From: Bacteroidia bacterium | GTDB lineage: Bacteria > Bacteroidota > Bacteroidia > JANWJV01 | Length of the DNA: 42,279 nt | Assembly: GCA_025451785.1 (NCBI GenBank) | Contig: JANWJV010000044.1 | Span: 1-42,279 of the forward strand | Direction of reading: 5' to 3' | Part shown: positions 15,324-18,762 of the stretch, in pieces | Layout of the letters: every line of letters starts with the position of its first letter | Numbering within the stretch: position 1 is the stretch's first letter | The notes under the pieces: generated by a model | Databases searched by the model: none | Told to the model about the DNA's origin: nothing | Seen by the model: the letters and a program-made list of their open reading frames with translations, nothing else | Translations under genes and position numbers: made by a program

Positions 15324-15959
15324 TTAGTGTCCGATATAAGAAGCAGTTCTTTTCAAGGTCCAGGCGATGCCGCACTTGAGGTAAACAGTGGCAGCCGAGT
15401 TCTCCCTGATCATGTTCTTACTGGCTTCGGGAGCTTCGATGGTGTGGTACATACCCGCGCCTATTGCGGTGGTAGCGTAGAGATGCGGTGTTAGTTTGAT
15501 GTGGAGACCGAATCCGCCATATAATTCCACCAGGTTAAGTTTCATCTCGGTATAATTGAATTCTCCTTCGCGGCAAGCATAGTTCTCGAGCCTTACATAC
15601 CTGTTACTTAGGAACGCGCTGGTGTGATGAGCCGCAGAGCCGAAAACAAAAAGTTCGGCCCTTGATGTGGTAGCTGACTCGAAACCATGTTCGAAGCAAG
15701 CCCAGAAGCCGGCAACGTTCAGGTTCCTTTTCTGTATATTAATGCCCATCATCAGAACATTGGTATTCTTGTAAAGGCCAATACCAGGCTTGATATCGGA
15801 ACCAAGACCGCTGTTTGAATTAGTATAGTTAAGGTTAAGGCCGATGTTCAGTTTGCCGCCGTCGCCTGCATACATAGGAAGGCTGGTGAGCGCGGTAAAT
15901 ACCAGGCAGGGCTTGATCATGATGCTAATAATGATCCTGGAGAGTTTTGAGTGTTTCAT
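15324..15959 (-). CDS. Hypothetical exported protein, possible outer-membrane barrel
   Basis: ORF 15324..15986 with a better start at MKHSKLSRIIISIMIKPCLVF; alternating beta-like segments. Confidence 0.5.
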   Translation of the reverse strand: MKHSKLSRIIISIMIKPCLVFTALTSLPMYAGDGGKLNIGLNLNYTNSNSGLGSDIKPGIGLYKNTNVLMMGINIQKRNLNVAGFWACFEHGFESATTSRAELFVFGSAAHHTSAFLSNRYVRLENYACREGEFNYTEMKLNLVELYGGFGLHIKLTPHLYATTAIGAGMYHTIEAPEASKNMIRENSAATVYLKCGIAWTLKRTASYIGH

Positions 15960-16297
15960 CTTTTTTTTTGTTTTGTTGGTTTGCATTTTTTAGTTGTTCA
16001 AACTTGATGATGCAAAACTACCCCCGCCGCATGCCCATTAAAACCCAACCTTAACCGATATGTCACACATGTAAGATTATCTTGAAAGATGATGGCTATT
16101 TCTAATAAAAATGCAGATATTATTCAAATTCTGAACAAAAAAGGCCATTTAAGAGAAAATTAAAAACTATGTGATTTGATGTAAGAAATGAGCTTAGAAG
16201 CGCCGGAAAAGCACCGGAAAGCTCAGCATTTGCCGAAAGTTTTCGTCAGGAAGGAGGAAAAAGAGATAAAGCGAAGTCAAAAAAAGCGTTGAAAGCT

Positions 16298-16347
16298 CTT
16301 AAGGCTGCCACAAAAAAGAAGCTCGCCTACGCTTCTTAACAGAAGCT
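16298..16347 (+). repeat. Copy 1 of 50-bp direct repeat flanking the GIY-YIG gene
   Basis: CTTAAGGCTGCCACAAAAAAGAAGCTCGCCTACGCTTCTTAACAGAAGCT; 49/50 identical to 16706..16755. Confidence 0.95.
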
Positions 16348-16348
16348 C

Positions 16349-16381
16349 CTTGCTTCGCCGTAGCGGCTACGCGAAGGCAAG
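16349..16381 (+). repeat. Imperfect inverted repeat present only beside copy 1
   Basis: CTTGCTTCGCCGTAGC-G-GCTACGCGAAGGCAAG; about 15 bp of pairing with two single-base bulges. Confidence 0.75.
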
Positions 16382-16397
16382 TCGGCGAGCGAAGGAA

Positions 16398-16640
16398 TTA
16401 AATTAGGTGTTTCTTTAAAAAAGCCCTGCCCGACCCGGATTTAAGATACTTCTCAAATTCGAACGCCCTGTATTTATCTGTAAAGACAGTATAACTTATT
16501 AATTTAACCGGACGACGGTTCTTTGTAGCAGGAACCGAACCCCTCTGGTGTCTATTCAGCCTATCCTCTAGGTCAGAGGTACAACCTGTATAATAAGTCC
16601 CATCGGAGCACCCAAGGGTATAGACACAATAAAGAACCAT
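16398..16640 (-). CDS. GIY-YIG nuclease family protein
   Basis: CVYTLGCSDGTYYTGCTSDLEDRLNRHQRGSVPATKNRRPVKLISYTVFTDKYRAFEFEKYLKSGSGRAFLKKHL; compact 80-aa UPF0213-like GIY-YIG fold. Confidence 0.88.
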   Translation of the reverse strand: MVLYCVYTLGCSDGTYYTGCTSDLEDRLNRHQRGSVPATKNRRPVKLISYTVFTDKYRAFEFEKYLKSGSGRAFLKKHLI

Positions 16641-16705
16641 GCGATTCGAAGGCGGTCTTCGACCGCCGTAGCTCGCCGAAATTAAAAAAGAGTACTCTTC
16701 GTTTT

Positions 16706-16755
16706 CTTAAAGCTGCCACAAAAAAGAAGCTCGCCTACGCTTCTTAACAGAAGCT
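16706..16755 (+). repeat. Copy 2 of 50-bp direct repeat flanking the GIY-YIG gene
   Basis: CTTAAAGCTGCCACAAAAAAGAAGCTCGCCTACGCTTCTTAACAGAAGCT; one mismatch to copy 1. Confidence 0.95.
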
Positions 16756-16770
16756 TCGGCGAGCGAAGGC

Positions 16771-16844
16771 GGTCTGGACGGGACTCGAACCCGCGACCCC
16801 GTGCGTGACAGGCACGTATTCTAACCAAGCTGAACTACCAGACC
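16771..16844 (-). tRNA. tRNA-Asp (anticodon GTC), 3' CCA not encoded
   Basis: Reverse complement GGTCTGGTAGTTCAGCTTGGTTAGAATACGTGCCTGTCACGCACGGGGTCGCGGGTTCGAGTCCCGTCCAGACC folds as a cloverleaf with loop CTGTCAC. Confidence 0.95.
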
Positions 16845-16950
16845 TTCAATAAAAGAGGCGCAAAGTTATACTTTTTTTGAACCAAACCAAATGGATAATA
16901 TCCACCTGCCTTGTGATGACCATTATAACGGAAGAAACGAGTGTAGCGAC

Positions 16951-17187
16951 CTAATCGATCCCTTTGAAGAAATCCTCGAAACTGAGCTTGTGAACCCTAA
17001 GTACGTTCGCCAGGGTATTGATGGTAATGTTTGTCTTACCCTTTTCCATCCTCCAGTAATGCACCCTTGCCAGTTTGTTCTTTACTGCAAAGGTCTCTGC
17101 ACTTTTATATCCTGCTTTCAGGCGAAGTTGCTTGATCCTATGTGCGATCTGGTCGATTCTTTTTTGAGAAGATTTACTGTATGCCAT
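16951..17187 (-). CDS. XRE-family helix-turn-helix regulator
   Basis: IAHRIKQLRLKAGYKSAETFAVKNKLARVHYWRMEKGKTNITINTLANVLRVHKLSFEDFF; classic HTH_XRE layout. Likely start MAYSKSSQ within ORF 16951..17211. Confidence 0.85.
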   Translation of the reverse strand: MAYSKSSQKRIDQIAHRIKQLRLKAGYKSAETFAVKNKLARVHYWRMEKGKTNITINTLANVLRVHKLSFEDFFKGID

Positions 17188-17298
17188 TGTATTCGGTTGA
17201 GGCACAAACATAGTAATTTTTATTAAACAAACATGATAAACATCTTTTAACGCAACATCAGGAAATTCGCAACATTACCCAAAAAATAACAGGAGGAT

Positions 17299-18762
17299 CT
17301 ACCAGAACGGCCGCTTGTATTCAGTGGCGTCCTCGGCAATGATCACCGGACGGAAACCAATAAAAGGTGAGGCGGATGAACGTGTAAACTCTCCTTTCAT
17401 CTTAAAGAACTGCTCCTTGCTGCTCCAGCATGAACCCATAACAGTTACCTGGCCGCTGGCCTGCTCTAAAATAAGTTCTGAAACATGGCCCACCTTACAA
17501 AGCGTTTTCATCCTCCTCGGATAAAGTGTGTCAGCAGGAGTTGAGTTCGCATACTCAAGACCCTGTTTGAAAAGAGCAGCGATCTCTCCTTCGTTCATTC
17601 CATACCTGTTGATCGAATAGAAATAGTCGGCCGAATCGTTTTTCCTTCCATGATGTCTCTTCACAGTGGCCATTCTGCGTACAAAAGCCTTATCAACGGC
17701 TCCCTCCTTTACATCGAATATAGTATTGTATCCGCCACAGTCAGGCACCTGGGCTGTACCTACCCATGCCGCATGGATCCACTCTACGTCATACGGAAGC
17801 CTCACTTTCACAAGTTTTGCTTTAGGGTTGTTCTTCTTGAGCCATGCATTGGTCTCTGCCTCTAACCATTGGCAAAATAATTTGGCAGCGTCAGCGCTGA
17901 TGCTCACCACAGGAAAATCGTCGTATCGCTCATCTGTAAAATAATCGGCTGCCAAACCACTAAGACCATAATTGTTCCACACGGCGGTATTAACCTGGGC
18001 TTTTTTATAGTCTTCTGTTCTGCCTTGCAAAAGCAGGTCAACAAGAAATGCCTTGTATTCAATATTGGTCACTTCAAAATTTCGCATTGCGAATGAGGTG
18101 ACCTCCACCCCTTTCCCCTTGTAATCCACTTTACCTTCTATGAGAGTGGTATAAACTTTTTTATCGCGCGACGCCAGCTTACTGAACATCTGGCTTTTGA
18201 GGTTGCGGAAGCGGGCCACCTCTCTTTCTATGAGCACAGGCGCAACGGGCGCTGCCTTTTGCTCCTGCAATTGCTCCGGTGCAGGCTGTGACACGGCTGC
18301 CTTGCCTGCCGAATCATAATAGGAAACGATCTGTCGGTAGTTTTCAGCCACGGGAGGCGGCATATTCATTTCTATCATTGCCTTCTCGTGATCCGCCACC
18401 GAATCTGTATACTCCTTCAGCCCATAGGTCTTTCCATTGGCGGTGATATAGATCTTAGCATCTGCGTCAAAAGCAGTTTTATTTCCCGAATGGATCGAGT
18501 GTTCGACATGAAAGAACATAAAGATGAGCTCAAAGACAACGGCGAAACCCAGGCCCGCAGGGAAATAGCGGCTGAACCAACTGGGCTGATCACGGGTGAG
18601 TTTTTCAATGACCGCCTTTTCTTTCGCGGCGTCGATCTTCACATCATACTCCTGGCCTAATACAAACTCAACATCCCCAGGTAAAGCCGCCCCTTCCTCA
18701 AGGAAAACCCCTTTGAGAAGCTCTTCCAATTCCTCTTCGTTTATTTTCCTGTGTTCGCTCAT
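17299..18762 (-). CDS. Single-TM membrane protein with C-terminal FGE-sulfatase (SUMF1-like) domain; anti-sigma-like position
   Basis: ATGA overlap with the upstream sigma gene; N-terminal cytoplasmic region, TM AGLGFAVVFELIFMFF, then EVTNIEYKAFL...FPVVSISADAAKLFCQWLEAET...RLPYDVEWIHAAW...GFRPVI. Confidence 0.75.
   Translation of the reverse strand: MSEHRKINEEELEELLKGVFLEEGAALPGDVEFVLGQEYDVKIDAAKEKAVIEKLTRDQPSWFSRYFPAGLGFAVVFELIFMFFHVEHSIHSGNKTAFDADAKIYITANGKTYGLKEYTDSVADHEKAMIEMNMPPPVAENYRQIVSYYDSAGKAAVSQPAPEQLQEQKAAPVAPVLIEREVARFRNLKSQMFSKLASRDKKVYTTLIEGKVDYKGKGVEVTSFAMRNFEVTNIEYKAFLVDLLLQGRTEDYKKAQVNTAVWNNYGLSGLAADYFTDERYDDFPVVSISADAAKLFCQWLEAETNAWLKKNNPKAKLVKVRLPYDVEWIHAAWVGTAQVPDCGGYNTIFDVKEGAVDKAFVRRMATVKRHHGRKNDSADYFYSINRYGMNEGEIAALFKQGLEYANSTPADTLYPRRMKTLCKVGHVSELILEQASGQVTVMGSCWSSKEQFFKMKGEFTRSSASPFIGFRPVIIAEDATEYKRPFW

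Follow-up and report, generated by a model that had tools for sequence, protein, structure and literature searches.

Why an 80-aa GIY-YIG nuclease gene should lie between two direct repeats and directly beside a tRNA-Asp gene is the question raised by this locus, which belongs to a window of 42,279 nucleotides, the term denoting the whole stretch of DNA that was analyzed. A sequence-only reading had proposed a small mobile cassette with two 50-bp repeats as its ends. The repeat search confirmed that the gene is enclosed by direct repeats, which measure 51 nt and are identical at 50/51 positions. It also recovered a 14-mer (TCGGCGAGCGAAGG) at 16382, behind the left repeat after a 34-bp insertion, and at 16756, abutting the right repeat, as well as a 12-mer (CGAAGGCGGTCT) at 16647, upstream of the GIY-YIG start, and at 16764, on the tRNA boundary, all as first described. 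The longest exact direct repeat in positions 15500-17500 is 44 nt, compared with 9-14 in 30 mononucleotide shuffles. The 14-mer, first described as one base away from tRNA-Asp, is not merely near the tRNA, because it overlaps the encoded CC (16768-16769) of its 3′ end.

The start-to-start spacing is 374 for the 14-mer and 408 for the 51-mer, a difference of exactly the 34-bp insert, so that the repeat represents one 65-bp unit present twice, with its left copy split. Along the tRNA strand, tRNA-Asp ending in CC is followed by TTCGCTCGCCGAAGC and the remainder of a hairpin, a T-rich run, a hairpin mimicking the tRNA acceptor end (GGCGGTC-GAA-GACCGCC), the GIY-YIG gene, the letters TTCC and then once more the 5′ hairpin, this time gene-less. 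Since spacing and order fit tandem 5′ ends, the view of the repeats as ends of one cassette was rejected; each repeat is the 5′ end of one of two consecutive units, the second being either a tandem element or a terminal hairpin copy, as in the array at locus L072. The hairpin built on AGAAGC/GCTTCT is present and is predicted to be larger than first read, with a further stem of 7 bp (GCTCGCC/GGCGAGC) outside that of GCTTCT/AGAAGC. The insertion point is the 3′ end of tRNA-Asp, formed by the discriminator G and the encoded CC, and the same start, TTCG..TCGCCGAAGC directly after the CC of a tRNA or tmRNA, also occurs in other phyla. The features are summarized in the table below. Directly upstream of tRNA-Asp lies a further small gene (16951-17211, minus strand) with a weak, below-cutoff match to the helix-turn-helix family PF13560.

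Table. Features of the tRNA-Asp locus in the window, with the basis of each assignment.
Feature	Position	Strand	Basis
tRNA-Asp(GTC), host gene	16768..16844	-	ARAGORN; Rfam tRNA match on the same gene in L011
Element A, 374-bp unit, from TTCG directly after the tRNA CC to TTCC past the GIY-YIG stop codon	16394..16767	-	14-mer spacing of 374; unit structure matches the 4 x 472 bp repeats in L072
Hairpin 1 of element A, TTCGCTCGCCGAAGCTTCTGTTAAGAAGCGTAGGCGAGC, then T-rich run (terminator-like)	16729..16767	-	Coordinates and fold
Right 51-nt repeat copy, within element A	16705..16755		Repeat search
Acceptor-end mimic hairpin GGCGGTC-GAA-GACCGCC-TTCG	16647..16667	-	Repeats the 3′ end of tRNA-Asp (AGACCGCC), also as reverse complement
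GIY-YIG nuclease gene (80 aa) with its catalytic residues	16398..16640	-	PF01541, E=3e-14; alignment; model
5′ end of element B, an older second element without a gene (or a terminal hairpin copy), immediately following element A	16304..16393	-	44-nt and 14-nt exact repeats, in the order of element A
34-bp REP-like palindrome inserted into element B	16348..16381	-	Near-copies elsewhere in the window genome
Left 51-nt repeat copy, within element B	16297..16347		Repeat search

A search of the window's own genome found no second locus for the 51-bp repeat, and its interpretation as a dispersed repeat was rejected on account of this confinement. Its palindromes occur in few copies, flanking the window gene and standing alone at a tRNA-Pro gene and on contig C6. 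At the former, tRNA-Pro(TGG) is directly followed by the hairpin core of the window element, TTCGTTCGCCGAAGC, without a GIY-YIG gene (contig C8, L009 positions 1501-1534); at the latter, the contig starts with a gene-less element carrying a Ser-type mimic hairpin (L231 positions 1-67), read as CCGCC-TTCGGTCGCC...GGCGGACGAAGTCCGC and then a terminator-like hairpin. This CCGCC would be the end of a tRNA-Ser, at which the assembly of the contig probably breaks. Near-copies of the 34-bp palindrome (CTTGCCTTCGCGTAGCCGCTACGGCGAAGCAAGG) lie outside tRNA genes, at C91:2-35, C60:44647-44681 and C127:2344-2374. No match was found that would place the window element on a plasmid, and no relative of its GIY-YIG protein was found in viral contigs.

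The window protein contains GIY-YIG (PF01541) as the sole domain found, with neither an HUH-Y1 nor a Y1 transposase domain. Y17, G19, R27 and E63 are invariant in the alignment (A1) of the protein with its relatives, the predicted fold reaches a pLDDT of 95, and its nearest PDB folds are UPF0213 proteins and the structure-specific nuclease Slx1. The gene is under strong purifying selection, with a median dN/dS of 0.10 and low values also for most pairs of tandem copies. Given the retained catalytic residues, the confidently predicted fold and the low dN/dS, the product is most likely active. A profile search (E<=1e-12) returned matches in 158/396 Bacteroidota genomes, covering 90 of 172 genera, and the closest proteins, 64-74% identical, come from Bacteroidota and Patescibacteria (e.g., Gottesmanbacteria). 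The window protein matches no curated family in NCBIfam and no defence system in PADLOC. At one locus (L120, genome G262, contig C13) the GIY-YIG match lies inside an open frame of 287 codons, longer than usual, which may be a fusion or a chance frame.

The association with tRNA genes extends across the relatives. A tRNA or tmRNA on the same strand, within 260 bp upstream or 60 bp downstream and with loci cut by a contig end excluded, adjoins the gene in 87/113 loci of the tRNA-linked clades and in 1/49 loci of two sister clades, the KxWS and KYLKTxYGKxFxxNRL types (Fisher p=6e-21, for distance limits and a clade division set after an initial inspection of the data, with loci that are partly non-independent). 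The Bacteroidota survey alone gives 51/63 vs 0/22, and in 88/88 linked loci the strand of the tRNA or tmRNA is that of the gene. The remaining 26/113 loci of the tRNA clades include 8 with a tRNA within about 250-760 bp. Targets also follow the phylogeny: Ser, tmRNA, Cys and Leu labels are clustered on the protein tree, clades keep to Leu, Cys, Met, Ser or tmRNA, and the label "none" requires 26 changes vs 57.5 in shuffles, on a tree of 78 columns in which many forks lack resolution. Many elements commonly integrate at tRNA genes, and these loci might be passive landing or recombination hot spots with the nuclease a bystander; we judge this very improbable, because the unit, which measures 323-472 bp across the observed arrays, carries no other gene, because the sister clades lack the bias and because clades keep to particular tRNA types.

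In about 20 loci of other clades a tRNA fragment, a hairpin, the gene and a complete tRNA occur together, and the split, where it can be placed, is in or at the edge of a loop. When the gene lies ahead of the tRNA, it is itself preceded by the 5′ part of that tRNA, split by a hairpin; L162, for example, reads tRNA 1-22, CCTGCCTGCCGCAGGCAGG, tRNA 23-35, gene and complete tRNA-Arg. When the gene follows the tRNA, a 3′ tRNA part with a hairpin in the T-loop lies past the gene (Leu in L136, L139 and L168; Cys in L135, L143 and L181; Ser in L169 and L189), and in L032 the hairpin is in the anticodon arm. A narrow pattern search for the junction of tRNA-Arg D-loop and hairpin detected three places in 2/396 genomes, both already known to bear copies. 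The clade of the window has no split-tRNA fragment, and the grounds for the putative membership of its element in the family are protein phylogeny, position and mimic hairpin. Interrupted tRNAs of this kind might be read as the decayed remains of group I introns that sat in anticodon loops and carried GIY-YIG endonucleases, and one published account (PMC3984707) describes bacterial group I introns in tRNAs that may encode homing endonucleases. We give this next to no credence, as most splits affect a D- or T-loop or the 3′ end and the gene has a complete tRNA next to it. The intron reading was rejected on the Rfam result for 20 tRNA-linked loci, including that of the window, where tRNA and tmRNA were the only matches and no intron RNA was found.

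Filled and empty states of the same site were found among relatives. Beside one sugar-nucleotide-reductase-like gene, tRNA-Arg(CCT) carries three units in G269, one in G441 and none in G476 and G457, the flanking protein being 92% shared between G269 and G476. In the empty state the sequence is ..GCAGGATA|GAGCAG..; the filled state is interrupted at precisely this point, tRNA 22/23, and has the complete tRNA at its far end. Beside a PBP gene, the tRNA-Leu(CAG) site is filled in G269, G469, G476, G464 and G328, and GIY-YIG is absent there in 17 genomes with sequence on both sides, including G457 of the same genus. In G328 this locus (L203, C1 63656-67900) has two units, no detectable complete tRNA-Leu(CAG) and duplicated flanking sequence, and a loss of the tRNA after insertion is possible. 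Tandem arrays of identical or near-identical units are common among the relatives, with 4 x 472 bp and a last lone hairpin in L072, 5 x 450 in L139, five units in L174 and three each in L148 and L176, and gene-less copies lie upstream of tRNA-Leu in G269 and downstream of tRNA-Arg in G269 and G476. Taken together, the arrays, the gene-less copies, the close relatives in two phyla and the filled and empty orthologous sites show that the family is mobile, and mobility of the window copy is suggested by these relatives. The idea of a small mobile unit of GIY-YIG gene and palindromes at a tRNA is thus supported, through empty orthologous sites and a patchy distribution in relatives, without the repeats as its ends. 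A host-useful gene beside tRNA genes, serving tRNA processing, stress cleavage or defence and not itself selfish, would suit the strong purifying selection and the fixed strand and spacing. We nonetheless find this improbable, since presence is patchy at orthologous tRNAs and since identical arrays, split tRNA fragments, gene-less copies and relatives in two phyla speak against it, as does the missing PADLOC match of the window protein.

We consider it likely that these are small selfish elements which enter tRNA and tmRNA genes by homing, with the nuclease as the driver and an intact tRNA being kept. The unit, a hairpin plus one GIY-YIG gene on the tRNA strand, could share the transcription of the tRNA from its promoter. 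The nuclease would cut an element-free tRNA gene in the D-loop, T-loop or anticodon loop or, in the clade of the window, at the 3′ CC end, and the element would enter the cut as it is repaired from a copy that carries the element. Loop-inserting clades would bring tRNA sequence for both sides of the cut, whereby a complete tRNA is rebuilt beside the hairpin-split fragment, and the 3′-end clade would leave the tRNA whole. Tandem arrays would form because the rebuilt tRNA is again a target, and gene-less hairpins may be decayed or non-autonomous copies. Several points count against homing: the complete tRNA adjoining an element should stay a target, with the escape from lethal cutting unaccounted for; homology arms of ~20 bp are short for RecA; and the 26/113 loci without an adjoining tRNA, the missing split-tRNA fragment in the clade of the window and the coarse protein tree weigh on the same side.

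The target-matched hairpin bears on a different route. In the window clade the terminal bases of the adjacent tRNA recur in a hairpin preceding the gene, as GCGGACGCAGTCCGC for Ser, GTGGACACAGTCCAC for Ala, GTGGACAAAGTCCAC for tmRNA, GCTGGTGATGACCAGC for Gln and GCGGTCGAAGACCGC for Asp. By a motif defined after part of the data had been seen and then tested, the hairpin matches its own tRNA in 11/34 loci and another tRNA in 0/306 tests, and 11 matches were reached in 0/5000 permutations; at several further Ser loci the direct copy TCCGC alone remains. The same mobile family might move by single-strand transposition, with GIY-YIG acting on single-stranded hairpins, those of a cloverleaf-folded tRNA gene and the element's own, and with an element guide pairing with the target as in IS200/IS605, whose guides are tetranucleotides. 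Insertion in cloverleaf loops or at the 3′ end, hairpins at the junctions, a stretch of the mimic hairpin that is complementary to the target tRNA end and varies with the target, and a fold like that of Slx1 all agree with this route. As double-stranded sequence, too, the loops are the most conserved part of the tRNA, so that a loop bias could arise without folding; the motif is post hoc, and a cruder test, which scored complementarity to the tRNA tail by the longest common substring, was weak, its observed value being reached in 78/2000 permutations. We know of no joining activity in GIY-YIG proteins, which also counts against this route, and on balance we regard it as unlikely. It is similarly doubtful that the elements form a separate class in which GIY-YIG alone moves the hairpin-gene unit as single-stranded DNA into cloverleaf loops or the 3′ end, the target-matched hairpin serving as an exchangeable guide that sets the tRNA.

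For homing into tRNA genes, the reading we prefer, the closest published counterpart found is SegB, a GIY-YIG homing endonuclease of T-even phages that is free-standing, lies in the T4/T6 tRNA region and promotes inheritance and tandem amplification of that region (PMC2988022, PMC13096335). As with SegB, an intron-less GIY-YIG nuclease gene lies among tRNA genes; unlike SegB, the tRNA elements are chromosomal in Bacteroidota and Patescibacteria, encode a single 80-aa domain and are inserted within or directly at the tRNA, a hairpin marking the junction and the tRNA being rebuilt, and no relative was found in viral contigs. In common with free-standing GIY-YIG homing endonucleases they have the catalytic domain and its residues, and relatives show presence and absence at one locus (tRNA-Arg, tRNA-Leu). 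The earlier comparison in logic with homing and REP/RAYT elements retains some value, as REP/REPIN with RAYT (TnpA-REP) combine one nuclease-type gene flanked by palindromes with solo palindromes elsewhere and a possible guide (PMC3116915, PMC6006769); in the window genome the solo palindromes are few. Here the nuclease is GIY-YIG, the HUH-Y1 transposase is absent, and the site is a tRNA, not dispersed intergenic places. IS200/IS605 elements likewise have hairpins close to their ends, and they use a short guide to contact the flank of the target (PMC6006769); the present elements have a candidate for such a guide. They differ in the absence of a Y1 transposase and in an insertion that restores the tRNA. 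Genomic islands with tyrosine integrases also integrate at tRNA genes and restore the tRNA with a missing part that they bring along; the elements resemble them in this and differ in having no integrase and a unit of <0.5 kb, the 374-bp unit having room for the 243-bp GIY-YIG gene alone. Ssn of Neisseria, a GIY-YIG nuclease specific for single-stranded DNA, is likewise a solitary gene tied to its own repeated target sequence nearby. Ssn is not known to target tRNA genes, to form tandem arrays or to show empty sites.

The open-licence literature searched contained no description of tRNA-linked GIY-YIG elements in bacterial chromosomes, nor of a junction hairpin, a split and restored tRNA and a clade-specific tRNA combined on chromosomes of two phyla, and there is a real chance that these elements are a class of their own. 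If the homing interpretation is correct, many small GIY-YIG genes of Bacteroidota and Patescibacteria would be selfish elements living on highly conserved genes while a working tRNA is kept, which would account for tRNA fragments and palindromes around tRNA genes. The family would then reach two phyla, including Patescibacteria with their very small genomes, and would be a source of compact nucleases with natural targets, in tRNA genes, that vary from clade to clade. Each clade indicates its own target, which makes the question amenable to direct testing.

For the KYLKTxYGKxFxxNRL clade (L131, L132, L134, L137, L140, L141, L147, L157, L163, L171, L184 and L186), a search for rRNA or another RNA as target gave none, with neither tRNA nor Rfam RNA nearby. 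The KxWS clade includes L022, L025, L026, L084, L091, L093, L097 and L099 as loci without a tRNA link, and several of its genes are surrounded by palindromes of the TGAGCTTGTCGAAG / CTCGACTCCGCTCGA type, perhaps another pairing of nuclease and palindrome. In L089, L090 and L092, from Doudnabacteria and Uhrbacteria, the copies follow a complete or near-complete CCA and start with GACTTCGCC.., a different variant of insertion at the tRNA 3′ end.
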